Shown here: positions 2,782 through 15,381 of the stretch, piece after piece
Numbering within the stretch: position 1 is the first letter of the stretch
Layout: every line of letters begins with the position of its first letter
Source of the DNA: a virus
Virus record (IMG/VR): IMGVR_UViG_3300009620_001904
Coordinates: 1-22,530 of that record
Length of the DNA: 22,530 nt
Direction: 5' to 3' (one strand)
Program-made: the position numbers and the translations under genes
Notes under the pieces: model-generated
Database searches by the model: none
What the model was told of the DNA's origin: nothing
What the model saw: only the letters and a program-made list of their open reading frames with translations

Positions 2782-3009
2782 CTAACCTAAATCCTCCTTG
2801 AATATATCTATTAGCTTCTTGCGGTCTGTCCCTTTAACATCAGGATCTATTGGCATCACATGGTAGTCTGGATTCCTTGAAGCAGAGTTCTCTACGTTGC
2901 CGCAGGCTCTGCATACCCACTCCTTACCACCCTCTCTAAAGTAGCCAAACCTAGCATCACAGTTAGAACAACGGTGACGCTTCTGTGCTTTCTTTGTAGT
3001 ACTAGGCAT
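2782..3009 (-). CDS. Zinc-ribbon protein
   Basis: A 75-residue protein with two CxxC knuckles (C14/C17 and C33/C36) separated by 15 residues, the layout of a zinc ribbon, following a basic N-terminal tail (TTKKAQKRHR). The frame could open further upstream at 3033 (MMMN...), but the ATG at 3007-3009 has GGAGG five bases upstream and makes the same 8-base overlap with the preceding stop seen elsewhere in the block, so I chose it. Zinc ribbons of this type often bind DNA or RNA polymerase; here the role is unknown. It follows the RecT-like gene directly. Confidence 0.65.
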   Translation of the reverse strand: MPSTTKKAQKRHRCSNCDARFGYFREGGKEWVCRACGNVENSASRNPDYHVMPIDPDVKGTDRKKLIDIFKEDLG

Positions 3010-4102
3010 CTGTGCCTCCGTATTCATCATCAAGTCTATTAGCTAGTTCCCACCAATCAATAACACGCCAGTTGCTGATGGGTATATGGGCTACTTCTGC
3101 CATCAGTTTTTCACCTGCATCTCTACGATCACTAGGAGAAATTCCATAGGTATCCATCAGGTTAGTTACCTGATCTTTATACCTTAGTGCGATAGCTTCA
3201 AAGTCACACCACTTCTTCTCACCTGCTACTGGATGAGCATAGCCACGCATCTTGCCACGCTTGAAGAAGTAAACAGGTCTGCCTCTGTTGTCATCTAAAG
3301 TAGGCTTATGGTTCCAGTGAACAGGACAGAGTTCATCTCCTAATTCAGTCTCGCCACTAGGAGTAAACCACTTGTAGTCACCTGCTACCGGAGCACTTGC
3401 ATTAGATAACTTTCTATCCTCAGATGGATTATCTAGATCTACTTGCAGTTCTTCTGGGGTATAGACAGCACCAGTAAATGCATCAGCACAGAACCATCGT
3501 GCTCCATTGGTCAAGGCTCTGGCAAAGAGCATGTTCCTAGGATACTTAGTCCATCCGCTACCCTGCCTTACCAGCCCAGCTATCTGTGCATCTTCCATAG
3601 AGAAGCTAGATACCCCAGCCTCTTCACCGTTCTCAGTAAAGGTAAGCACACAGTGCTCATTGTCATGTGAGTCAATGGTGTAGTTATACTTACCGGACTT
3701 CTTTATCATGCTGGCAATCAGCCCTGCTGACATAGCCACCTTGCCCTCAACAACATAAAGTTCTTGAAGAGACTTTAGTGGGCCTAGTCCTATCTCTCTA
3801 CCTGCAAGTATTGAGATGATTGCTTGCTCTGAATTGAAGATAGCAGGGAACCTGTTACTGGCAACAGCAACATCTCCTATCTGTCTCATATCAGCAAGCG
3901 ACATACCCTGCTTCATTATTGCAGTGTCTGCCTCATCATCTGTTAGTTCTTCTGGGACTTCCTCTACTACCTCTGCCTCAACAACTTCTACAGGCTCAGA
4001 ATCCCACGGTAGTTCTTCTACTACTACATCCTCAGTAGATTCAGTTGTCTCTGCCTCTGGTTTTTTATCTGGCGTGAGGTCGCCAAAGTCTAGCTTGTCC
4101 AT
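3002..4102 (-). CDS. RecT-like single-strand annealing protein
   Basis: A 366-residue protein. Residues 12-62 are very acidic and probably disordered. Residues about 68-225 match the RecT-type recombinase pattern: a helix with RFP-IFNSEQA, then GREIGLGPLKSLQELYVVEGKV-MSA, a strand pair, W184-TKYPRNMLFARALTNGARWF, and AVYTPEEL. RecT-family proteins anneal complementary single strands during phage recombination, usually with a partner exonuclease. The C-terminal part holds C259-x2-H262, H265, H290 and C299, a possible zinc site not part of the core fold. The start has AAAGG eight bases upstream. No lambda-exo/RecE homologue is evident next to it; the two small PD-(D/E)XK proteins downstream are too short for RecE. 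Confidence 0.7.
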   Translation of the reverse strand: MDKLDFGDLTPDKKPEAETTESTEDVVVEELPWDSEPVEVVEAEVVEEVPEELTDDEADTAIMKQGMSLADMRQIGDVAVASNRFPAIFNSEQAIISILAGREIGLGPLKSLQELYVVEGKVAMSAGLIASMIKKSGKYNYTIDSHDNEHCVLTFTENGEEAGVSSFSMEDAQIAGLVRQGSGWTKYPRNMLFARALTNGARWFCADAFTGAVYTPEELQVDLDNPSEDRKLSNASAPVAGDYKWFTPSGETELGDELCPVHWNHKPTLDDNRGRPVYFFKRGKMRGYAHPVAGEKKWCDFEAIALRYKDQVTNLMDTYGISPSDRRDAGEKLMAEVAHIPISNWRVIDWWELANRLDDEYGGTDA

Positions 4103-4524: not shown

Positions 4525-5081
4525 TTAACTTCTTCCAACTTCCCAGTCCCCTCAAGGGTTGACTGCGTTTCAAACTTCCCAATCTTTTTAGTAACTCGAT
4601 CTATCTCTGCTATCTCACATTGTTCTGAGTAGCTACCGTCCTCCAATTTTCTTTTTGAATACACAAGTAAGACATCTTTAGTAAGTTCTTCAGGCAATCC
4701 CCCTAATCCTTCTGAGTTGTATTTATCTAAAGAACTTTCCCAATCTGCCTTGTCTTTGAATGTGCCAATAAAACTTTCAGCAACAAAGATAACGGCAAAG
4801 GCTTCCATCTCTCTTGCTGTTGCTTGCATAACTGGATACCAGATACTCTTTGGAAATCCTGCTAGCATAAATGCAGTAACACAGCCTTTCTTGGTAGGAT
4901 CTTCAATGAAGTCTCCTGCCCCTAGTTCAACAGGTAAGGACTTAGCCATTTCTCTTGGCATATTTTTACCTGCTGCCATAAAGAATGGTATGATTTCCTT
5001 ACCACTTTCTTCAGTTCCCTGTGCTAATGCCGCCCCTTTTGCAAGGTCAATGAGCATCTCACGATCTTTTTCTGTATACAT
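4518..5081 (-). CDS. Hypothetical protein
   Basis: A 187-residue protein of unknown function. The frame extends upstream to a GTG at 5120, but the ATG at 5079-5081 has AGAAAGGG five to six bases ahead, matching the block's ribosome-binding leader, so I start it there. Residues 20-110 look alpha-helical with mixed hydrophobic segments (VTAFMLAGFPKSIWYPVMQATA, given here only as a landmark near 67-88), but no clear membrane helix. The C-terminus is polar. It follows the VWA gene and could be part of the same transcript. Confidence 0.6.
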   Translation of the reverse strand: MYTEKDREMLIDLAKGAALAQGTEESGKEIIPFFMAAGKNMPREMAKSLPVELGAGDFIEDPTKKGCVTAFMLAGFPKSIWYPVMQATAREMEAFAVIFVAESFIGTFKDKADWESSLDKYNSEGLGGLPEELTKDVLLVYSKRKLEDGSYSEQCEIAEIDRVTKKIGKFETQSTLEGTGKLEEVKW

Positions 5082-5098
5082 ATTTTCCCTTTCTGTAT

Positions 5099-5110
5099 AC
5101 TCACACACAC
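5099..5110 (-). promoter_or_regulatory. GTGTGTGTGAGT box before the 187-aa gene
   Basis: This 12-base sequence on the minus strand also occurs at 9168-9179 ahead of the first leftward gene. Here it is followed by TATACA and then the AGAAAGGG leader. It may belong to a leftward promoter or operator, but the -35 hexamer is not clear. Confidence 0.3.
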
Positions 5111-5119
5111 AATGATACA

Positions 5120-6799
5120 CTAATGTCGAGATGAGAGGAAGTTGAACGTGTCAACGACCGAAGTTAAATCCTCCTTGTCTGTTACTTTTGCAACGACTTC
5201 TTGTGGGTAGTAGCCCCTGTCAATATTGGAGCGCCTCCTGCCCAGCGAAACAGTAACTGAACAGAACTTAACCCCCTTAGCTATCATTCTTTTAGCTACA
5301 ACTGCGCACTTGTCAGGGTTCTGGGGTTCTCCATCAGTGATAACTACTCCGGTTGCACCTTGAGATTGATCTCCAAGTAAATCTTCCATGACTTCAAGTG
5401 CTGCTTCTTCTGGAGTGTTGCCATTTAAAGTTTTACCTTCTTCACAATAAGGACACAGAAGTCTCTCTCCTCTGGGTACTTCTACAATTACTGGAAACTT
5501 TCTCTCATCTGAATACCCAAAGACTCTGGACTCAGGAAAAGATCTGCTTAGCATTGCTGCTATATCCCAGATTGTTACCCCTATATGATATGACGGATCT
5601 ACCCTGTGATAGTTACCACATCTACACGAAGTAGATTGAGAACAATCAACCATAATTATTAGCTGGCTGCTAGAGATGTCATCTTTCTTGAATACATCTA
5701 GCTCACCGAATGGAAGCCGTGCAATCTTCTTGTTTGGCTTACCAGTGCTGCCTTGTTTTACTAATTTATAGTCAGCAAAATCATTTAGAAGTAGCCGTGC
5801 TTGAAGTGAACTAACAACTGGCTTAGTCTTATAGCCTGTGGATACACTAGGGTGTGCAAACCTAGCGTTGTTTTGTTGGAGGGCAGCCCAATCACGTTCA
5901 TCTTGTTTCTTACCCTCTTCTTGCTGTACCTTTCTGGTTTCTTGCTGCTTTTGTTTAATCTTATTGAGTAGTTCTTTTACACGTTCACTTTGCTCAGGGT
6001 TAGCTACTTCTTCCTGCTCTGAATTAGTATTCTCAATGTCTCTGGGTCTACGCTCCTCATCAGATCCGATGTCTGAATTCTTATCATCTGATCTGCTGGG
6101 TTCCCCCTCTCCTTCTGCTTCTTCACTGCTATCCTCAGCCTCATCGGGAGCGTCACTGCTTGTAGGATCTTGCTCATCATTTTCATGGCCTTGATCTTCC
6201 TCTTGATCTTCCGGTGGCTGCTTCAGATATTCAAGAATCTTTATTGCTTCTTCTGCCAGAGGCAGCACTGCATCCATGCTTGGAAGCTTAGAGATCTCAA
6301 CTAATCTTTTAGAAAGCCGCTTCCCGTTAGCCTCAAGATACTTTGTTATTCCAGAGCTGAAGTTTCTTTTAGCAGCACCAGTAAACATGGCTGAAGTGAT
6401 AGCACTATTACCAAAGTTATCTTCTGCTAGTATCTTCTCTAAGGCAGAGCCGTTATAGAACTCATGTCCACGTAACACTGCATAACAATAAGCAAGTTCT
6501 TCTAGTACCTGCTCAGGATAGTGGTGGTACGAAGATGGACTTTGATCTGGTATCAAACCGTAATAATTATTTGATACCTGTGTCCCTACTGCTCCAAGTT
6601 CCTGTGCTACATCTCTTACCACTGACAGTGATGCAAGCTTTGCATAGCTATCAGTTTCCTCATAGGTAAAAGACTGAGAGGCTGTGTTCTGATTTTCCCA
6701 TGCTTTAATCCTGCCTCTAGCACTGTTTCCATGCTGCTGCTGTGCATCAGTTCTGGATTTACTAAGATGATCTAAGTATGATCTAACTTCTTCTGACAT
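5120..6799 (-). CDS. VWA-domain protein, CobT-like partner of the AAA+ ATPase
   Basis: A 559-residue protein. The N-terminal ~190 residues are helical, residues about 195-270 are highly acidic and low complexity, 275-305 are a K/Q/E coiled-coil-like stretch, and the C-terminal ~190 residues form a von Willebrand A domain. The metal-ion-dependent adhesion site is intact: D385-x-S387-x-S389, T462 and D489 (VVITDGEP). This acidic-linker-plus-VWA architecture is that of CobT and other VWA partners of MoxR-type ATPases. Two cysteine pairs inside the VWA domain (C392/C394 and C449/C452) may form an added zinc site. TAATG coupling joins it to the cysteine-rich 49-aa gene. A role with the ATPase at 7173-8789 is likely; cobalt chelation itself is not implied. 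Codons 374-384 carry the 32-nt repeat shared with the gene at 10271-10597. Confidence 0.8.
   Translation of the reverse strand: MSEEVRSYLDHLSKSRTDAQQQHGNSARGRIKAWENQNTASQSFTYEETDSYAKLASLSVVRDVAQELGAVGTQVSNNYYGLIPDQSPSSYHHYPEQVLEELAYCYAVLRGHEFYNGSALEKILAEDNFGNSAITSAMFTGAAKRNFSSGITKYLEANGKRLSKRLVEISKLPSMDAVLPLAEEAIKILEYLKQPPEDQEEDQGHENDEQDPTSSDAPDEAEDSSEEAEGEGEPSRSDDKNSDIGSDEERRPRDIENTNSEQEEVANPEQSERVKELLNKIKQKQQETRKVQQEEGKKQDERDWAALQQNNARFAHPSVSTGYKTKPVVSSLQARLLLNDFADYKLVKQGSTGKPNKKIARLPFGELDVFKKDDISSSQLIIMVDCSQSTSCRCGNYHRVDPSYHIGVTIWDIAAMLSRSFPESRVFGYSDERKFPVIVEVPRGERLLCPYCEEGKTLNGNTPEEAALEVMEDLLGDQSQGATGVVITDGEPQNPDKCAVVAKRMIAKGVKFCSVTVSLGRRRSNIDRGYYPQEVVAKVTDKEDLTSVVDTFNFLSSRH
5655..5686 (-). 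repeat. 32-nt exact repeat, copy 1
   Basis: Located in the VWA gene just before the metal-site D385; identical to 10374-10405. The encoded strand leads into the VWA core, so this copy is probably the ancestral one (inference). Confidence 0.9.
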
Positions 6800-6819
6800 T
6801 AACTATCTCCACATTCAAT
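6797..6819 (-). repeat. Gene-junction repeat, copy 1
   Basis: This 23-base segment (stop/start junction plus the last codons) matches 6946-6968 with one mismatch. Both copies hold a GGAGATAGTTAATG ribosome-binding and TAATG start arrangement and encode E-(C/S)-GDS ends. Confidence 0.7.
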
Positions 6820-6948
6820 ACAGGCACAGTTGCCTTCACCTATGAAGTCAGGACAATCCTCACCTTCTATACACCAGTTTGGGTTAGCCCTGCATCTATG
6901 TGTGCGACATTCATTAGCTGTGCAATCTTCACAAATTTCTTTTGGCAT
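6799..6948 (-). CDS. Cysteine-rich 49-aa protein
   Basis: A small frame lies exactly between two genes, with TAATG junctions at both ends: its ATG overlaps the stop of the 74-aa gene and its TAA overlaps the ATG of the VWA gene. It encodes 49 residues with nine cysteines (at 6, 9, 14, 19, 26, 32, 41, 43 and 46), opening MPKEICEDCTANEC and ending CACIECGDS. The cysteine density and precise coupling argue for a real metal-binding or disulfide-rich peptide. No family is recognised. It could be a metal-binding accessory of the AAA+/VWA pair (inference). Confidence 0.65.
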   Translation of the reverse strand: MPKEICEDCTANECRTHRCRANPNWCIEGEDCPDFIGEGNCACIECGDS

Positions 6949-6968
6949 TAACTATCTCCAGATTCAAT
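6946..6968 (-). repeat. Gene-junction repeat, copy 2
   Basis: Second copy of the 23-base translational-coupling junction described at 6797-6819, one mismatch apart. Confidence 0.7.
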
Positions 6969-7172
6969 CTCGTTATACCTAGCCTTTAGCGAGTCATCGG
7001 ATTCATACCTTAGTCCACGACTTCCGTATTCTCCTAGGTTAGAGATTTCCTGTATCAATTCCTCTTTAGACCAGCTTTCATGGCTTAGCTTCCAATGCTC
7101 AACAATTCTTTCAATAAGAAGATGCCTTATCGTCTTGTCTGCTGCCATTACAGCTCCCTCTTCTTTTGACAT
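6948..7172 (-). CDS. Small hypothetical protein
   Basis: A 74-residue helical, charged protein of unknown family, between the AAA+ ATPase gene and the cysteine-rich gene. The first ATG abuts the ATPase stop codon. An internal ATG at 7146-7148 has a stronger ribosome-binding site (AGAGGGAG), so the protein may be 66 residues. Its last residues (IESGDS) and the bases around its stop nearly duplicate those of the next gene. Confidence 0.55.
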   Translation of the reverse strand: MSKEEGAVMAADKTIRHLLIERIVEHWKLSHESWSKEELIQEISNLGEYGSRGLRYESDDSLKARYNEIESGDS

Positions 7173-8789
7173 TTAGAGATTGATCCCTTCTAATCCTTCT
7201 ACTTCTTCGTAGTCTTTTTCAAAGTGCGTTGCAAACACTGACATAGCCCTCTCTTTCTGCTCTGTTTCTTTGAGAGTATTTACATGACAAACTATCAGTG
7301 CAGTAGTTATGTCCACTCCCCGCAGCAAAGTCTTTGCTGTCATAATCAATGATCTTGTAGAGATGGTAGTTGTAATGTCCTCTCTCATATCAACAGCCAT
7401 TTGCCTTAGCTTGTTAGCAGTCTTACCAAAGTACTGCTCTGGAAGAATCCCATCCAGTATCACTGGCTCATCTGCAATCTCATCCTTGATCTGAATGATT
7501 CTCATTCTGTCAAGCAAGGCTTTGTCTAGTGGGTTGTTGAAGTAACCACCACCAGTTGGGTTGCCTGTTGCATATATCCAGAGTTTAGGATGAACAGGTA
7601 TTTCATCTTCACTATTTTCATAGACAGTGAAGTGTCTGTACCCATCTTCCATTAGTGAGTGCAGCCTGTTGTTGAATTCTGGCGGAGCCTTTGGTAACTC
7701 ATCAAGAATTAACATGCCACCCTCACCGCTTGCCCTAACCATCTTGGTTACTGTTCCATCTTGCCAGCCCAGTCCAATACCTAAGTATTCATAGCTGCTC
7801 ATGTCTTGACCTAGGCCAGTCTTACCTATTACTGTTCCGTCTGCCTGTCTCCAGAACGGGGTTGGTCTTGGAGTACCTACTAATACTTCTTGGTCAATAC
7901 GACTTGTAAAAGTAATACTGTTTATGTTGTCTCTGCCAGTGTGTTCACCTAGCATGTGACCCATGAAAGTCTTGCCTGCACCAGCCTCACCCTCCATATA
8001 TATTGGAGATCCTTCTAGTGATAAGCAAAGATTGAATACTTTATCGCCATAATCTGTTAGTGCAATCTTGTATTCCGCTGCGTCTTTAGCTGCACTAAGC
8101 TCATTAGCATCTAGCTTTGGAACAGACCAAGCTTCCTTATTGGTTATGTCAAAGCCAAGCCCACTCTCTACATCAGATGTATTTGGCACAACAGTGCCAG
8201 CCATTGACGCATCTGCTAATACTTCCCCAGCTATTTCTTCCATGCCTAACGTTAGAAGAAAGTAAGGATTATGCATAAGTATTTTATGGACATGATCCCT
8301 GTCATATTCAGCTATGTAAGCAGCATTTTGCCTAGCCTCTGCGGTACACGCAGCGGTGGCTGCCAGCCTTGGCTTGATATAAGTCTGATCTGATTGTTTA
8401 GAACTATATCTGCCAGTGAGCCGTGTCAGATTGGTGTGAATCCCATCAAGATAAGTAGTCAACCACTGTTTATATTTCTGGGCAGTAGTATTGCTAAAGG
8501 GAATGTTATACATAAGAACACTACTGCTTGCAGTTGGTTCGAATGTTGTGACTAATCCCTTTGTGTAATCTTCAATGAGAAAATTACCAGTAGTAATAGC
8601 TATTGGAAGTACTGCGCCAGAGCCTTTGCTTTTAGCACATAACTCCATGAATTTATGTTCAACGCCCTGTGTATCTCTGATATATGTGCTGTTTGTCACT
8701 AAATATCTGTGACTGAGTGATCGTCCTCTGCAAAATGCTTGAAGCGTAGTCTCATACTGAGCAGGAACTCCGATATTTTGAATTGTCAT
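7173..8789 (-). CDS. MoxR/CobS-type AAA+ ATPase
   Basis: A 538-residue protein whose second half is an AAA_5 (MoxR/CobS) ATPase. Visible motifs are Walker A GEAGAGKT (about 267-274), Walker B MLILDEL (D363-E364), sensor 1 in WIYATGNP (N410), and an STRS segment in the lid. ATPases of this group form hexamers that remodel or load metal into target complexes, with a VWA protein as partner; that partner is encoded two small genes downstream. The N-terminal ~240 residues are not a familiar domain and may be phage-specific. The frame opens upstream to 8846, but the ATG at 8787-8789 has AAGAAAGG in good position and does not overlap the previous gene, so I use it. Confidence 0.8.
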   Translation of the reverse strand: MTIQNIGVPAQYETTLQAFCRGRSLSHRYLVTNSTYIRDTQGVEHKFMELCAKSKGSGAVLPIAITTGNFLIEDYTKGLVTTFEPTASSSVLMYNIPFSNTTAQKYKQWLTTYLDGIHTNLTRLTGRYSSKQSDQTYIKPRLAATAACTAEARQNAAYIAEYDRDHVHKILMHNPYFLLTLGMEEIAGEVLADASMAGTVVPNTSDVESGLGFDITNKEAWSVPKLDANELSAAKDAAEYKIALTDYGDKVFNLCLSLEGSPIYMEGEAGAGKTFMGHMLGEHTGRDNINSITFTSRIDQEVLVGTPRPTPFWRQADGTVIGKTGLGQDMSSYEYLGIGLGWQDGTVTKMVRASGEGGMLILDELPKAPPEFNNRLHSLMEDGYRHFTVYENSEDEIPVHPKLWIYATGNPTGGGYFNNPLDKALLDRMRIIQIKDEIADEPVILDGILPEQYFGKTANKLRQMAVDMREDITTTISTRSLIMTAKTLLRGVDITTALIVCHVNTLKETEQKERAMSVFATHFEKDYEEVEGLEGINL

Positions 8790-8800
8790 ACTTGCCTTTC

Positions 8801-9103
8801 TTAGTATTCTGACGGAAACAGTAAGGTCGTTACTGATCTGTCCCACTCTGTAATAATCCAGAGCTTATCTTCTCTACCCTCATAGAGATTAGTGGCATCT
8901 ATTGGATAAGAACTCAGCAGCCTGCCACCAGTCTTGGCTGAATCATCATTGAGTTTCGCATCTTCAGCGTCAAGTTCACCCCAATCACCTGACTTATGCT
9001 TATCTAGTAACTTACTAACAACAGATTTACGTTCATCGGGGTTTTTCATAACCCAACCTGCTACCCCTGCTGTTACCACTGTCCTTCCAAGATCAACTTC
9101 CAT
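8801..9103 (-). CDS. Plasmid/phage conserved hypothetical (GDWGDLD-type)
   Basis: A 100-residue protein. The segments HKSGDWGELDAEDAKLND, GGRLLSSY and KLWIITEWDRSVTTLLFPSEY match, from memory, a small family common on plasmids and mobile elements and usually annotated 'plasmid related protein'; its biochemical role is unknown to me. The ATG at 9101-9103 has GAAAGG upstream; the longer frame to 9169 would use GTG without a ribosome-binding site. It is the first gene of the leftward block, so it may be the first expressed. Confidence 0.7.
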   Translation of the reverse strand: MEVDLGRTVVTAGVAGWVMKNPDERKSVVSKLLDKHKSGDWGELDAEDAKLNDDSAKTGGRLLSSYPIDATNLYEGREDKLWIITEWDRSVTTLLFPSEY

Positions 9104-9202: not shown

Positions 9203-9398
9203 TTTAACGAAAATCCGTCCGAAAATGTGGCGAAATGTGTCCCTTTATTTAAATATAAAAATAGACCCCATCAATAAGAGATCAACCTTATCAATGAGGT
9301 CTAAGCAAGAGGTCATCTAGCTTAAGAAAGGGTAGAAAACTAGGAATGTCATAAGTAAAGAGGACAAGTCTCTGACTTACGCCTCTTGCTCATTAGAT

Positions 9399-9434: not shown

Positions 9435-10004
9435 ATGGCTGGACATCAATTAGATAAAAGAACTAAGACAGTAGAGGTAATAAAGAAGGCTAAGATGGGC
9501 AGAGAGCCTGTCATCCCTGCCTTTGGTGTTACTAGGCGAGAAGAACTGTTTTGCAGAGAGGTAATCGAAGGGTCTACCTTAACTGAGGCTTATAAGCTAG
9601 CGTATCAGCCCCATATTAACTCTACTATTCAGTCAATACATAACAAAGCCTCTGCTTTATTCCGCAAGGAAAGGGTAGCAAGAAGGGTAGAAGAACTGTA
9701 TGAGCAGCAGGATTCACTGTCAAGACTAGACACAGACTATGTAATCACTAACCTGATAAGTAATCATAGGATAGCTTTAGAGTCGGGCGATCTGACATCA
9801 AGTAATAAATCATTAGAATTATTAGGGCGACATCTAAATCTATTTGAAAGAAAACCACAAGCAGACGAACAAGTTGCTAGTTTATTTAGTTGGATAGCCC
9901 AACAGTCTGGCAACATAAATATAGAAAAACCTAGGGATTCAGCACTCGCTCCAGCTACGATAGAGGTAGAGGTCAAAGAGTTAGACGGTCAACCAGACAA
10001 CTGA
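9435..10004 (+). CDS. terS: Terminase small subunit
   Basis: A 189-residue protein resembling terminase small subunits, which bind the packaging site and regulate the large subunit. The basic N-terminus is followed by TRREELFCREVIEGSTLTEAYKLAY, a helix-turn-helix-like DNA-binding segment at about 33-58 (cited as a landmark). Then come VARRVEELYEQQ and DTDYVITNLISNHRIALESGDL with KSLELLGRHLNLF, the usual oligomerisation region. The C-terminus is polar. The ATG has AAGG four bases upstream. It is isolated from terL by 3.8 kb of mostly opposite-strand sequence, which is unusual. Confidence 0.75.
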   Translation: MAGHQLDKRTKTVEVIKKAKMGREPVIPAFGVTRREELFCREVIEGSTLTEAYKLAYQPHINSTIQSIHNKASALFRKERVARRVEELYEQQDSLSRLDTDYVITNLISNHRIALESGDLTSSNKSLELLGRHLNLFERKPQADEQVASLFSWIAQQSGNINIEKPRDSALAPATIEVEVKELDGQPDN

Positions 10005-10141: not shown

Positions 10142-10220
10142 TGGTGGAGGTGGGGGGAATCGAACCCCCGTCCTGCAACTTCCACATGTGGTTTTAGTTG
10201 CAGTCTTACCAGTCACCCCC
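10142..10220 (-). ncRNA. Minimal tmRNA-like (tRNA-like domain only) RNA
   Basis: The minus strand folds as a 79-nt tRNA-like molecule. The 7-bp acceptor stem is GGGGGTG (10214-10220) with CACCTCC (10146-10152), the third pair being G3:U70, the alanine identity pair. A73 and an encoded CCA follow (10142-10145). The T arm is GGGGG-TTCGATT-CCCCC (10153-10169), and GAC links it to the next helix as in tmRNA. The D region ACTGGTAAGA has no stem, as in tmRNA. Instead of an anticodon arm there is an 8-bp helix (CTGCAACT/AGTTGCAG) like tmRNA helix P2, closed by a 15-base loop containing the palindrome CCACATGTGG. There is no room for a tag-coding domain or pseudoknots. A strong terminator follows on the same strand. 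Alternatives are a degenerate tmRNA remnant or a divergent tRNA; an attachment site alone would not keep the paired 5' half. Confidence 0.75.
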
Positions 10221-10270: not shown

Positions 10271-10597
10271 CTATGGATGGTTTTTATCGTAATCGCTTAT
10301 AGATATTGCTATGCCACGTAGTGAAACGGCTACATCTGAAAGATTTTCAGATAACTCTGTATCTCTTCCAGATATTATTAGCTGGCTGCTAGAGATGTCA
10401 TCTTTGATGACATCTCTAATGGAGCCGATAGTGGCTAGCAATGCGTAGATCTCTGCCCTTTTATGCAGTTGATCTACGCTAAAAGGCATTGTTCCATCTG
10501 ACTGAACATCTGCTAAAACCTTAGCATCGTTCAAAGATGTAACTGCCTTTTCATAGTCTAAGCCCGGCAATATGTTCGGTCTGTTTTCATCAGACAT
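10271..10597 (-). CDS. Hypothetical protein sharing a peptide with the VWA gene
   Basis: A 108-residue protein of unknown family, acidic and mostly helical. The ATG has AGAGGA five bases upstream. Residues about 62-76 include KDDISSSQLII, identical in peptide and in 32 nucleotides to a segment of the VWA protein encoded at 5120-6799. The same stretch forms half of a 13-bp perfect hairpin in the DNA (10390-10418). It is the gene nearest to the tmRNA-like RNA. Confidence 0.6.
   Translation of the reverse strand: MSDENRPNILPGLDYEKAVTSLNDAKVLADVQSDGTMPFSVDQLHKRAEIYALLATIGSIRDVIKDDISSSQLIISGRDTELSENLSDVAVSLRGIAISISDYDKNHP
10374..10405 (-). repeat. 32-nt exact repeat, copy 2
   Basis: Identical over 32 bases to 5655-5686, on the same strand and in the same coding frame (KDDISSSQLII). 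Flanking bases differ immediately on both sides. Confidence 0.9.
10390..10418. repeat. 13-bp perfect hairpin inside the 108-aa gene
   Basis: Arms TAGAGATGTCATC / GATGACATCTCTA with a 3-base loop. The left arm and loop belong to the 32-nt repeat; the right arm is unique to this copy. Confidence 0.85.
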
Positions 10598-10920: not shown

Positions 10921-11721
10921 CTAGGAAGTTAATCCTATTTTGCTCAGCAAGTTTGGAGACTTCGGAGCTTCAGCAGGTTTAGCTTCCTGTTGGGCCTCAA
11001 GCCCGGCAGTAAGCATGTGAACCTGCTTTGCTAGCAGTTCAAGCTGCTGCTTTAGAGACTGGTTTTCAGACTCTAATGCAGATGTATCAGCTTGAACAAC
11101 TGGAGGAGTCTCCAGTTGAGGTACTGGCGGCGTAACCTGCGCTGCTGGTGGTGCTACAGTCCCCTGTGCATAAGCACTGGGGTGCACAACCAAATTGCCT
11201 TTAGAGGCAGTTTGTGTGTGCCTGCCGCACCACGGTTGCGCATAAGCTGGCGCGTCGCATCTGTAACCATCTGCGGCTTTGGAAGCTATACACTTTCCAT
11301 TAGCCACGATGGGAATACCTTTGTAACTGGTAATGCCAGTTACTGGATTCCCTGAGCCAACCGGACTTGAATTCCCATTCAAGTTCGTAGCTGGCTCTGT
11401 TGGTGCTGTAGCACCAACAAATGCTGGCGGCTGGAAAGTGGCTACAACAGGCTGTTGAGCAGGTTGCATAGCTTTGATCTCAGATTGGATCTTAGATCTA
11501 AAAGCTGTGTACTTGTCTGCTGTCGCAGAGAACCACTCGCCGTGCTGATTGGCTTGAACATCGTTGCCTTGGGCTCGATGCCAAGCGTCAATCCCCGGCA
11601 CAGCCCATCTACGTGGGCTGCGGATGTGGTTCTGCAAGTGCTCAAGCTGTTGAGCGCCCATCCCACAGAGGCAGACATAGCGCATTGCGCTTGCCGTGAA
11701 TTCCGGATTGCCTATATTCAA
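10921..11721 (-). CDS. Hypothetical protein with possible zinc sites and C-terminal coiled coil
   Basis: A 266-residue protein. It has an N-terminal C17-x-C19 followed by H28 and H32, a P/A/Q-rich linker, and a C-x(11)-C-x(9)-C-x2-H cluster at about 144-169, similar to small C3H zinc motifs in phage proteins (GYRCDAPAYAQPWCGRH). A second P/Q/V-rich linker leads to a coiled coil at about 213-240 (ALESENQSLKQQLELLAKQ). The start is TTG at 11719-11721, with AGAAAG 12 bases upstream; the first ATG (11683-11685) is the alternative. The modular linker pattern suggests a scaffold or virion-associated protein, but function is unknown. A highly structured segment lies just upstream of its start. Confidence 0.55.
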   Translation of the reverse strand: MNIGNPEFTASAMRYVCLCGMGAQQLEHLQNHIRSPRRWAVPGIDAWHRAQGNDVQANQHGEWFSATADKYTAFRSKIQSEIKAMQPAQQPVVATFQPPAFVGATAPTEPATNLNGNSSPVGSGNPVTGITSYKGIPIVANGKCIASKAADGYRCDAPAYAQPWCGRHTQTASKGNLVVHPSAYAQGTVAPPAAQVTPPVPQLETPPVVQADTSALESENQSLKQQLELLAKQVHMLTAGLEAQQEAKPAEAPKSPNLLSKIGLTS

Positions 11722-11743
11722 TTCTTAGCATATCTTTCTACTT

Positions 11744-11898
11744 GTGGCTCACGAACATCGCAAGCAACTTAAATTTTCCAGAGCAGGGCGAAAGAAATTC
11801 AGGGCGCAAGTATTCTGCGAATCCGGTTTATCCGGCCTGACTTGCGCCGGGGAGTTCCGCCCTGCTAAATTTGTGTTGCGCAGCAGAGTGTGAGCCAC
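11744..11898. ncRNA. Structured element A (155 nt), candidate RNA or 5' leader
   Basis: Four helices are nested in order: GTGGCTCAC/GTGAGCCAC (9 bp), GCAAC-TT-AAATTT/AAATTT-GT-GTTGC (11 bp with a small internal loop), AGCAGGGCG/CGCCCTGCT (9 bp) and GGCGCAAGT/ACTTGCGCC (9 bp). Two small hairpins (ATTC-TGC-GAAT and CCGG-TTTAT-CCGG) close the end. On the minus strand it would be the leader of the 266-aa gene, ending 22 bases before the TTG start. On the plus strand it would start a non-coding RNA. I do not recognise it as a known family. Confidence 0.6.
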
Positions 11899-11937
11899 GT
11901 AGAAACAGGCTAAGAAGAATATGGGGAGTTCACTGCT

Positions 11938-12045
11938 ATGTGCAATGTCTGCCATGCTAAGCAGTTGGGTAGTTGCATTGCTGAAGCACTGCAACGCTGC
12001 TTAGCTTGTGGGATAGCAGAGTCAAGCAGCAGATCAGCAGGCTGA
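11938..12045 (+). CDS. Possible 35-aa CxxC-CxxC peptide
   Basis: A short plus-strand frame with ATG at 11938 and GGGGAG nine bases upstream encodes 35 residues with C2, C5, C13, C21 and C24, a zinc-ribbon-like pattern. It overlaps stem-loops B and C, so it may be chance coding over RNA structure. Low confidence. Confidence 0.25.
   Translation: MCNVCHAKQLGSCIAEALQRCLACGIAESSSRSAG
11956..12005. repeat. Structured element B
   Basis: Nested arms GCTAAGCAG/CTGCTTAGC (9 bp) and GTTGCA/TGCAAC (6 bp) in the gap between the 266-aa and 201-aa genes. Confidence 0.6.
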
Positions 12046-12076
12046 GAAACTGACTGCTGACCAGCTTAAGCTTGAC
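12021..12076. repeat. Structured element C
   Basis: Nested arms GTCAAGC/GCTTGAC (7 bp) and TCAGCAG/CTGCTGA (7 bp), directly following element B. Confidence 0.5.
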
Positions 12077-12106
12077 CCAGCGGTAAGAAGTACGGGGTAT
12101 TTTTTT
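12075..12106 (+). terminator. Possible plus-strand terminator
   Basis: Short paired segments ACCC/GGGT and GTA/TAC, formed by a GTAAGAAGTAC repeat copy, are followed by seven T on the plus strand. The stem is weak, but it would suit the end of a plus-strand RNA starting near element A. Confidence 0.35.
12083..12099 (+). repeat. GTAAGAAGTAC repeat, copy 2
   Basis: GTAAGAAGTACGGGGTA; nearly the same string occurs at 13787-13804 with one mismatch and one extra G. Confidence 0.6.
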
Positions 12107-12117
12107 GTGAGTAACAC

Positions 12118-12154
12118 AAAAAAAAGGGCAGGATGGCGTTAGCCATCCTGCCCT
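12118..12154 (-). terminator. Strong intrinsic terminator of the 201-aa gene
   Basis: A perfect 13-bp stem (AGGGCAGGATGGC / GCCATCCTGCCCT, loop of 4) is followed on the minus strand by eight T, seven bases after the stop codon at 12162. Confidence 0.9.
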
Positions 12155-12161
12155 AAGTAGA

Positions 12162-12767
12162 TCAACCCTGCTTAGCTGTAGCAGTTGAGAGTTCGTAGTT
12201 GACCCTATCGACGCCGTAAACGCTACCGTAAGGATCATTTGGAAGTGTTTCCTTGAGGGTAAACTCTTCTTTCATGATGCGTTTACGGCTAGGCCCAGTC
12301 TGACGAGTAACTGTCCTTGATTTTGCGTAAGTGTAGTTACTCCACTCATCCTCTTCACCCGGCGGAAAATCAAGGTAGAGATCGTCCCAGTCCCTGACGT
12401 AATCGCCTCCAGCGGATTCATTTGCTTGAAGACTGTCATCATCTTCAAGCATCATCGAGGATCTCTTGATCTCGATGGGATGAATCCAGCTACAGTCTTC
12501 TTCGTCATGATTCACACATTCATGCTCATGACTGTGCTCAACTGGGACGATGCTCTTATCGCAGGTGTCTTCAGAGCAGAGTCTGAATTCACCCGGATAC
12601 TCGCGTACTAAAATATCGAATCTGGTCTTTACAGGTAAAGATCGGATTCGTGCAGAAGCTTTTTTAGAAGCATCTGCTGCTATTTTAGTGCTATCAGTTT
12701 GATAAGCCTTAGCCTCTCGGAGCGCCTCTTGGCGTTCTGAGAACTCGTATAGGAAACTGTTGTCCAT
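12162..12767 (-). CDS. Hypothetical protein, acidic, His/Cys cluster
   Basis: A 201-residue protein of unknown family. The N-terminal ~50 residues form a charged helix rich in A, K and E. The centre holds C-x4-C and a HSHEHECVNHDEEDCSWIH cluster (about 79-97 in this numbering), which may bind metal. The C-terminal half is acidic with aromatic residues (DWDDLYLDFPPGEEDEW). The frame extends to a TTG at 12824, but the ATG at 12765-12767 with AAGAAAGAG upstream is preferred. It is the most upstream gene of the 10.2-12.8 kb leftward group and ends at a strong terminator, so it is probably a single-gene transcript. Confidence 0.6.
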   Translation of the reverse strand: MDNSFLYEFSERQEALREAKAYQTDSTKIAADASKKASARIRSLPVKTRFDILVREYPGEFRLCSEDTCDKSIVPVEHSHEHECVNHDEEDCSWIHPIEIKRSSMMLEDDDSLQANESAGGDYVRDWDDLYLDFPPGEEDEWSNYTYAKSRTVTRQTGPSRKRIMKEEFTLKETLPNDPYGSVYGVDRVNYELSTATAKQG

Positions 12768-12847
12768 GACTCTGCTCTTTCTTAATGTTTTTGCTGATGC
12801 GAAAACACACCAGTGCCTACCCAATAATCTAGCCTTGTCAGTTCTTG

Positions 12848-12998: not shown

Positions 12999-13046
12999 CA
13001 CCTAGATTACGGTATCGGCGCTGTGTGTGTGGTAGTAGTGTAGAGC

Positions 13047-13158
13047 GATTGGGGTGCGACCATGTTTCCTGTTTCGTTTCATGCTGGTTTATGTCTTTTC
13101 CTCTGCGTTTAGCAGATAAAAAGGCCAGCATTAAACTCAACCTGAAACATCCCCAATC
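13047..13158. repeat. Structured element G, 112-nt rod
   Basis: Four helices nested in register: GATTGGGG/CCCCAATC (8), ATGTTTC/GAAACAT (7), ATGCTGG/CCAGCAT (7) and TCTGC/GCAGA (5), separated by internal loops. It forms a single rod. Confidence 0.75.
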
Positions 13159-13173
13159 GTGGCCAATACGGAA

Positions 13174-13393: not shown

Positions 13394-13443
13394 TCGATAG
13401 GTGTAGGTCGGGGAGAACAGCGGGCGACCTAAGGGTGTCCGAT

Positions 13444-13567
13444 CACCCTCTCGTCACATTACCCTCTCAGTAGTTATACACACAATAGTCCCCGCTTGGG
13501 AGAGAAAGGGAGGGAGAGGAAAGGGGGGACTATAGGGGGGATAGGTGAGAGAGGGTAAGAGAGGGTG
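13444..13567. repeat. Structured element K, 124-nt rod with G-rich core
   Basis: CACCCTCT/AGAGGGTG (8), TTACCCTCTC/GAGAGGGTAA (10) and ATAGTCCCC/GGGGACTAT (9) are nested. The core at 13498-13528 has at least four runs of three or more G on the plus strand and could form a quadruplex. Confidence 0.7.
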
Positions 13568-13626
13568 CTCTTGTGTTAAGAGCAGTCCTATCTATCTATC
13601 ATTACCTTACTTAATTGAGAGGACTG
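13566..13626. repeat. Structured element L
   Basis: TGCTCTT/AAGAGCA (13566-13584) is followed by CAGTCCT/AGGACTG (13583-13626), 7-bp arms each. Confidence 0.5.
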
Positions 13627-13821: not shown

Positions 13822-15381
13822 GTGCTGAATAGAGATATACACCCTCGCAAATTATTTGTAATTCTGTATCCTTTTGTGATGGACAAGAAAGTAGCTGAAG
13901 TAATTTGGAAGGCCCTTGAGGACTCTGATCCGGGCAGTGGTGAAGGTTATAAGATGCCGGGGCCCAGTCATGAGGGGTTTTTGTTTGATGGGACTCCTAC
14001 GACTCTTGTGAGTGGTGGTGAGCGTGGTGCGAAGAGTCATACGGGGGCGATGAAATGTATGTTGATAACGCTGGATTTCATTGCCCGGCATCCTTTGCAG
14101 GCAAGTAAGGGTGTTTCGTGGCTGGTGGGGGACTCATACGAGTTAACTCGGAGCGAATTTGATTATTTATCGGAGTGGTTTCAGACGATTGTTCCGGGTA
14201 CAAAGGTCAGTACACGGGTAGATCCGGGTCAGATAGAGGTTCCGGTGCGTCATGACGACCATCCGGGGTTAAGAGGGGTATTTACGATAAAGACAAAGTC
14301 TGCGGCAGACCCTATGAGTCTCAGGGCGGAGGCTCCAATATGGATTTATGGCTGTGAGGCTGCCCTGTTGACGCAGGATGTCTATTTCAGGCTGCTTGGA
14401 AGGGCCGGGCAGTCGAGAAGCATGTATAAAGACTTTGGGCAATTCATCCTGACGGGGACTTTTGAGAACAGTCTTGGCTGGTATCCAACTTTATGGACTA
14501 AATGGCAGTCAGGTGCGGCTCAGGTTGTTGACAGGGCGCGGAGTTTTAGCTTTCCCAGCCATGAAAACCGCTTTGCGTGGCCCGGAGGGGAGAAGAACGA
14601 GACTTTAATGCATCTCAAGAACATGCTTCCTGAAGATGTATACAAGGAACGCCATCTGGCTATCCCCGCGCCGCCATCAGGCCGTGTGTTTGGGAACTTT
14701 GACAGCACTGTTCATGTCCAGAAGTGCTCTTATGACCCCGATTTGCCTGTTTATCTTGGAATTGACCCCGGTTATTCGGGCAGAAGCTCTACTTATGCGG
14801 TTGAGGCGATGCAGAAAGTAGCAGATCAGTGGGTAGTCTTTGACGAAATAGCGATAAATAAGATTTCCGACCCCGGATTTACCGTAAAAGACATCTGCTA
14901 CCTTGCGCAACAGCGCTATTGGTGGAAAAATGCAGACAAAGTAGGGGTTATTGATATTGCGGGCGCAGCACACGCTGGCGCGCAGGAGTCAAACGAGGAG
15001 GTTTGGCTCAGGGAAACAGGACTGGTACTCAGACACCAGAGAGTTAACCTGCTTCCGGGTCTGGACAGGATGAAAACCAGCCTTCAGGTCAACCCGATCC
15101 ACAAGGAACCGGGAATAATCTTTGATCCATCGTGTAAATTAGTAATCTCAGAGCTTGGAGGGGCGGTAAACCCCTTTGATAACCAAGTTCACGTATATTC
15201 TTATAAGACAGACAGGCAGGGAAATGTAACTGATTCACGCCCAAGGGATGACTATTGTGACGGAATCAAGGCAATAATCTACCTGTTAGTTGACCAGATG
15301 GGATATGCTACCGGGCGTGGGCTCAGGAAACGTATAAGAGTAAAACGGCGTTCAATACGTCATGAAACTGTTGTTGTATGA
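13822..15381 (+). CDS. terL: Terminase large subunit
   Basis: A 519-residue packaging motor and nuclease. A Walker A-like segment SGGERGAKSHTG lies at about 64-75, with a Walker B-type acidic segment (IYGCEAALL) near 172-181. The C-terminal nuclease domain shows LGIDPGYSG (about 313-321), VGVIDIAGAAHAG and RDDYCDGIKAI, the acidic triad pattern of RNase H-like terminase nucleases. The frame opens at GTG 13822 without a clear ribosome-binding site; the ATG at 13879 (giving 500 residues) is an equally possible start, also without a Shine-Dalgarno sequence. ATGA overlap couples it to the portal gene. It is separated from terS by 3.8 kb. Confidence 0.85.
   Translation: MLNRDIHPRKLFVILYPFVMDKKVAEVIWKALEDSDPGSGEGYKMPGPSHEGFLFDGTPTTLVSGGERGAKSHTGAMKCMLITLDFIARHPLQASKGVSWLVGDSYELTRSEFDYLSEWFQTIVPGTKVSTRVDPGQIEVPVRHDDHPGLRGVFTIKTKSAADPMSLRAEAPIWIYGCEAALLTQDVYFRLLGRAGQSRSMYKDFGQFILTGTFENSLGWYPTLWTKWQSGAAQVVDRARSFSFPSHENRFAWPGGEKNETLMHLKNMLPEDVYKERHLAIPAPPSGRVFGNFDSTVHVQKCSYDPDLPVYLGIDPGYSGRSSTYAVEAMQKVADQWVVFDEIAINKISDPGFTVKDICYLAQQRYWWKNADKVGVIDIAGAAHAGAQESNEEVWLRETGLVLRHQRVNLLPGLDRMKTSLQVNPIHKEPGIIFDPSCKLVISELGGAVNPFDNQVHVYSYKTDRQGNVTDSRPRDDYCDGIKAIIYLLVDQMGYATGRGLRKRIRVKRRSIRHETVVV

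Follow-up and report, generated by a model that had tools for sequence, protein, structure and literature searches.

A phage quasi-palindrome that appears to pair a gene's start region with a shortened, inverted copy of itself

Introduction

Hairpins in cis-regulatory mRNA leaders can bury a translation start. The locus described here resembles such leaders in that a stable structure immediately precedes and covers the start of a single gene, and differs from them in that it forms one hairpin of 300-380 nt, that the start region of the gene, coding sequence included, recurs inverted as the other arm, and that no sequence is conserved between lineages.

Hairpin RNA genes and plant microRNA genes can arise by inverted duplication of their targets (PMC10317233, which has Allen 2004 among its references). 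They share with our locus a partial inverted duplicate beside a gene and a long complementary hairpin, but they work by eukaryotic RNA interference, usually in trans, whereas in the present case, in a bacterial virus, one arm is supplied by the start of the gene itself. Quasi-palindromes can also be made or mended by template switching (PMC8794818, PMC8604942). The likeness here is that the arms of an inverted repeat change together; the cases described there are mostly short stems, whereas our locus has long gapped arms, with the gaps on one side, recurring in three phages at a single gene. A search of the open-licence literature found no phage case of such an arrangement.

Results

The window, by which we mean the whole stretch of DNA that was analysed, is the 22,530-base IMG/VR virus record IMGVR_UViG_3300009620_001904, which we assign to a tailed phage by its small terminase (9435-10004), large terminase (13822-15381) and RecT-like (3002-4102) genes. 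Among named phages the terminase has distant matches only (<60% identity) and the portal and leftward proteins have none, while terminase and portal profiles found no relative in the genome contigs collection that would point to a host. In the ORF list of the window, leftward genes lie between the two terminase genes. Two of them, one with its start at 11721 and the other with its end at 12162, flank the element studied here; a turn of the cumulative GC skew falls in this broad region too (about 9-13 kb). The first of these two, hereafter the leftward gene (10921-11721, minus strand, TTG start), encodes a 266-aa product with an N-terminal zinc-finger-like motif (YVCxCGxG...L..HI), a second C/C/C/H cluster and a helix-prone C-terminal tail. 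This protein matched no Pfam or PHROGs family above cut-off, and its predicted structure (mean pLDDT 41.5) was left out of our conclusions. The upstream leftward gene (12162-12767, minus strand) is Cys/His-rich and has the same place in both related lineages described below; the 201-aa form was used, and its ORF can begin at 12824.

The original prediction was a 155-nt element at 11744-11898 with four nested helices, ending 22 bases before a TTG start. These helices are present, as read from the sequence and from the folds of both strands: helix 1 (9 bp) pairs 11744-11752 with 11890-11898, helix 2 (5 bp) pairs 11764-11768 with 11875-11879 and is joined by an A/T helix ending at 11867-11872, helix 3 (9 bp) pairs 11782-11790 with 11858-11866, and helix 4 (9 bp) pairs 11803-11811 with 11840-11848. 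The loop between the arms (11812-11839) holds a small hairpin, CCGG-TTTAT-CCGG, at 11823-11835, and the TTG at 11721 fits the predicted distance. The predicted fold is confirmed and far exceeds chance expectation: its MFE is -64.9 kcal/mol (z = -4.5) for the minus strand and -70.1 kcal/mol (z = -5.4) for the plus strand, and none of 200 dinucleotide shuffles was as good on either strand. Since the element also occurs in two other metagenome contigs (identical in L013, and with a single base difference at 11881 in L015, from another metagenome), an assembly oddity is excluded. A core-stem pattern scan of viral contigs returned 52 stretches, and the same element was found in L013 and L015 only. 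Near relatives are 99.9% identical or end at 12243, short of the element, and the 'phages' collection contained no direct DNA relative of 11700-12160 at blastn sensitivity.

The 155-nt fold is only the core, the inner half, of a longer imperfect palindrome at about 11617-12000. The predicted core therefore holds and its predicted borders do not, because pairing goes on outward and into the coding region of the leftward gene, which it enters by about 95-105 nt. The left arm (11617-11811) comprises the leader (11722-11811) and the first ~33 codons of this gene, and the right arm (11840-12000, with a score-supported end at 11989 under stricter scoring) is a shortened inverted copy of it. An outer helix joins 11670-11688, inside the coding region at about codons 12-17, to 11935-11953, with 84% complementarity. 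In a gapped comparison of the arms, 11626-11811 pairs with 11840-11989 at a score of 88, the maximum in 300 shuffles being 41. The arm alignment over 11617-11811 and 11840-12000 has 128 identical positions, with the left arm well supported to about 11626 only; past about 200 alignment columns the outer extension of the arms was not significant (p = 0.12, 0.99 and 0.67). The longest unbroken helix is 9-16 bp. With its score of 88 this is the strongest gapped palindrome of the window, the next reaching 45 and the maximum in 8 dinucleotide-shuffled whole windows being 41.

To find relatives of the locus, viral contigs were scanned with the terminase, portal and neighbour proteins. The same gene order was present in two diverged lineages with terminases 62-67% identical, L062 (67%), which consists of a single contig, and L065 (63%), of which L066 is a near-identical contig, so that there are three lineages in all, window included. 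The leftward gene is recognisable in both (30% identity in L062 and 22% in L065), and the YVC-x-CG-x-G...L..HI motif and the second Cys/His cluster are invariant in the three proteins. An ORF profile search of loci L060-L119 found the leftward gene in no other lineage, and profile scans with the portal, leftward and upstream proteins gave no fourth lineage; weak HMM rows for L074, L072 and L073 (E 0.02-0.12) were left out of the lineage count. On the fetched contigs, a palindrome lies at the start of the leftward gene in all three lineages carrying the gene, and each is the strongest of its own locus: the one in L062 (arms 6785-6945 and 6956-7086) scores 116 (next 36, maximum 37 in 8 shuffles) and the one in L065 scores 67 (next 34, maximum 37 in 8 shuffles). 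The geometry is also similar, with the palindrome centre about 134-167 nt ahead of a conserved Tyr codon, and the left arm ending about 10-22 codons past that codon; the arms are 28, 10 and 12 nt apart. Because the same arrangement is found at the homologous gene in two diverged phages, with the both-sided changes reported below, the predicted tie to the 5' end of the leftward gene is supported.

Palindromes were also sought in 119 other loci, 11 of which are L062 and L065 lineage members. Among the remaining 108, the L065 level was reached by L007 alone (score 75, shuffle maximum 41), an unrelated viral contig whose palindrome (arms 9318-9386 and 9437-9504) lies apparently between genes. Its score is significant, but it was rejected as the same arrangement, as no inverted copy of a gene start was seen so far as inspected. 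The palindromes of L077/L078 and L031 are near shuffle level and GC-rich, and were not accepted as counterparts either.

Every right arm was then compared with every left arm. Arms from the same genome scored 124.5, 156 and 102, as opposed to 26.5-41.5 for arms from different genomes (shuffles: mean about 33, maxima 54-68), and the right arms of different lineages were mutually unlike (28.5-37.5). No sequence is conserved between the three lineages outside the gene, and their non-coding arms do not align. At homologous coding positions, lined up through the protein, both partners had changed and still paired in 15 of 43 columns for L065/L062, 21 of 39 for L065/window and 32 of 56 for L062/window. 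These columns come from match-favouring arm alignments, so that their paired total is necessarily inflated; the cross-arm control is free of this inflation. Sliding the partner by 1-3 bases left 0-5 both-sided changed columns. Covariation, whose absence the original prediction had named as one outcome that would refute it, was thus found (15, 21 and 32 both-sided changes). By these comparisons the arms of the palindrome change together, which selection or template switching could both bring about. The arms are homogenised within each genome, with cross arms at shuffle level, which is the pattern expected of template switching, and the position at the 5' end of the homologous gene is conserved in 3/3 lineages with compensatory changes, as expected of a cis-acting leader.

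The right arm consists of the gene's own leader and first ~30 codons in inverted and shortened form; that it is shortened follows from the gaps in the arm alignments, which fall nearly all on the right side. Gap openings in the right and left arm, respectively, numbered 14:3 in the window, 16:3 in L062 and 21:4 in L065 under the first scoring, totalling 51:10 (p about 1e-7), and ranged from 34:5 to 54:12 over six scorings (all p below 1e-5).

A 35-codon plus-strand ORF in the right arm of the window (11938-12045) has two Cys-x-x-Cys pairs and a GGGGAG stretch ahead of its ATG. The right arm was nevertheless rejected as peptide-coding, because the ORF of L065 is short, the copy in L062 is without a start and the ORFs are not alike. 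As it is kept in neither lineage, the 35-codon ORF is probably a relic of the copied gene start.

The strand preference of the pairing was assessed from G-U-type mismatches. These were distributed 18:2 between the plus and minus strand under the first scoring (p = 0.0004; wobble pairs by lineage 8:1, 5:0 and 5:1), and 23:8, 14:2, 18:4, 15:6 and 19:6 under five others (p = 0.011, 0.0042, 0.0043, 0.078 and 0.015). The mismatches thus lean, weakly and depending on the settings, towards a plus-strand RNA, an option that had been raised in the original prediction; this is a lean and not a proof, and an asymmetry in the same direction could also arise from mutation biased between the strands. Folds of the whole element were more stable on the plus strand by about 17-21 kcal/mol in all three lineages. 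Shuffled sequences favour the plus strand in energy too, so that base composition accounts for part of this advantage, and the z-scores therefore differ less between the strands than the energies do (plus versus minus: -6.7 versus -6.1, -14.0 versus -11.0 and -6.7 versus -4.4).

A predicted intrinsic-terminator-like hairpin at 12125-12154 (minus strand) closes the upstream leftward gene. Similar hairpins occur in L062 (7383-7416) and L065 (7386-7417), and in the three lineages they lie about 125-270 nt right of the palindrome. Since such a hairpin closes the upstream gene in all three, the leftward gene probably has its own promoter, either in the gap between terminator and palindrome, in which case the mRNA would carry both arms, or inside the palindrome, in which case it would not. 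Near the element, promoter scans gave no match on the minus strand in the window, L062 or L065, so the leftward mRNA may start inside the palindrome. On the plus strand, one weak sigma-70-like match was found in the window at 11691-11718 (0.7 expected), and none in L062 or L065. When the right arm was added, the predicted mean unpaired probability near the start fell from 0.50 to 0.31 in the window and from 0.59 to 0.30 in L062 (anchored one base off the ATG), with a slight drop from 0.51 to 0.46 in L065.

Known classes of element were considered as well. At gathering score, Rfam 15 matched only a tmRNA elsewhere in the window; permissive searches gave chance-level scores near the element in the window and nothing at E <= 1 in L062 and L065. 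A riboswitch or other known RNA family is rejected for want of an Rfam match in any lineage. With no sequence conserved between lineages outside the gene, no Rfam match and a right arm that is the inverted gene start, the description 'riboswitch-like' is unsupported, while that of an autoregulatory leader may be right. An intrinsic terminator or attenuator was rejected, as no U run directly follows the hairpin; the sole terminator-like site within 11200-12400 is the one at 12154-12125 on the minus strand, outside the element. A hairpin telomere of the protelomerase-phage type was likewise dismissed, since a perfect central palindrome is missing and the spacers measure 28, 10 and 12 nt.

Discussion

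Our best reading of the locus, which we put forward tentatively, is that a self-complementary leader locks the translation start of its own gene. The gene has just upstream of it a shortened copy, in inverted orientation, of its leader and first ~25-35 codons, and the leftward mRNA would start right of this copy, after the terminator of the upstream gene. The 5' part of the mRNA would then be antisense to its own start region, and the mRNA would fold as one long, bulge-interrupted hairpin holding the region of the start codon. Translation would be kept low until the hairpin was opened or cut, and the opener might be ribosome loading, an RNase or the zinc-finger-like product itself. The arrangement is present in 3/3 lineages with the gene, and complementarity is kept without sequence conservation. 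Transcription through the right arm, the fold in the cell, the lowered translation and the opener are steps that we infer.

We favour this leader lock because the palindrome lies directly upstream of, and extends into, the same gene in three lineages with conserved geometry, because each right arm matches its own left arm and no other, with changes on both sides, and because the right arms encode no conserved peptide. Further support comes from the minus-strand terminator that precedes the element in all three lineages, leaving room for a separate promoter, and from the predicted fall in start access with the right arm. The leader lock is weakened by the G-U-type mismatches and the better folds, which favour the plus strand and not that of the mRNA, by the slight start-site effect in L065 and by the lack of a minus-strand promoter match near the element. 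It is also weakened by the fact that only three lineages are known and that template switching alone could keep the complementarity.

The palindrome may have no function at all, with recurrent template switching writing the inverted copy or re-matching existing arms, and a useless right arm decaying by small deletions. This would account well for arms that change together, and the excess of gaps in the right arm (51:10) is what one would expect of a decaying copy whose original is the gene; the template-switching papers describe the creation and re-matching of hairpin arms (PMC8794818, PMC8604942), and two weaker palindromes in the window, together with a 32-nt exact repeat in two genes, hint that such switching is frequent. 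However, chance events would have had to hit one and the same gene in three lineages, with matching centre and extent, which requires a hotspot, and other portal-related loci outside the three lineages are without a comparable palindrome (the best, L077 with 60 and L078 with 58, are GC-rich). Moreover, the one-sidedness of the gaps extends to the non-coding part of the arms, in which nothing requires the left arm to be favoured. On balance we consider an origin by template switching alone somewhat unlikely. A distinctly less probable explanation is a plus-strand antisense RNA, transcribed rightward from inside the gene, that would fold on the weaker copy until a perfectly matching mRNA displaced the copy and was silenced. 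In each lineage the plus strand retains wobble pairs and gives the more stable fold, and a weak promoter-like site lies at 11691-11718 of the window, but the wobble result varies with alignment scoring (p from 0.0004 to 0.078), shuffles show the same strand preference in energy, the promoter-like match occurs at the expected number with no counterpart in L062 or L065, and no plus-strand terminator follows.

Taken one step further, and with still more doubt, the phages might possess a counterpart of the target-derived hairpin RNA genes: such an antisense RNA would be caged on a deliberately weaker copy of its target, and bulges and wobbles would make this cage looser than the pairing with the mRNA. 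As the gene evolves, the cage would be rebuilt from it, and function would be kept while sequence was not. We regard as improbable, and least credible among these explanations, that the palindrome works at the DNA level, serving replication, recombination or packaging in the form of a cruciform or single-strand hairpin to which the zinc-finger-like protein might bind. Its position between the small and large terminase genes, the turn of the cumulative GC skew in the same broad region and the zinc-finger-like motif in the product of the overlapped gene would suit this role. Yet the lineages share no sequence for a protein to recognise, the centre is imperfect in all three (spacers of 28, 10 and 12 nt), and the strand asymmetry of the mismatches, if genuine, suggests that one strand acts in single-stranded form.

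If the leader lock or another function applies, the element would be a regulatory one whose identity lies in how it relates to its own gene and not in its sequence, and conserved-sequence searches and RNA-family libraries would therefore miss it. It would likewise offer a small natural example for weighing selection against template switching in keeping the two sides of a hairpin matched. If it is not functional, the locus would represent a replication hotspot that repeatedly writes inverted copies at one place in a phage family.

Other features of the window and its relatives

Two further quasi-palindromes, at 13441-13570 (score 45) and 13046-13159 (43; shuffled windows at most 41), lie in a stretch without clear genes ahead of the large terminase gene. 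A leftward CbbQ/MoxR-like AAA ATPase gene and a VWA-like gene, the latter assigned by eye from a DCSQSTS motif without a Pfam match, are found at 5120-6799 and 7173-8846; both are kept at least in part in L062, and the AAA gene also in L065. A 32-nt exact repeat (5655-5686 and 10374-10405) lies in the VWA-like gene and in a short leftward gene, in the same frame in both (KDDISSSQLII), its second copy running into a perfect small hairpin; it is as though a patch of one gene had been copied into the other.

The Rfam match mentioned above concerns a 79-nt RNA at 10142-10220 (minus strand), which fits the tmRNA model end to end at 65.6 bits (gathering 47) and is without the whole middle of tag-coding and pseudoknot sequence. 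It folds into an acceptor stem, with by inspection a G-U at the third pair, a long P2-like stem and a T-arm with UUCGAUU, and has a CCA end. ARAGORN made no call at these positions and Rfam found no tmRNA-like counterpart in L062; the RNA resembles a tmRNA reduced to its tRNA half. After the small terminase gene of L062, two similar small folds on the minus strand (5375-5465 and 5731-5795) both have a GCUCGA loop and a C-rich CCCCGCCRCCACC stretch ahead of the closing stem, and in L065 the corresponding gene is followed, at 5029-5583, by several strong hairpins and repeated short motifs such as GTTCCGGTGG.
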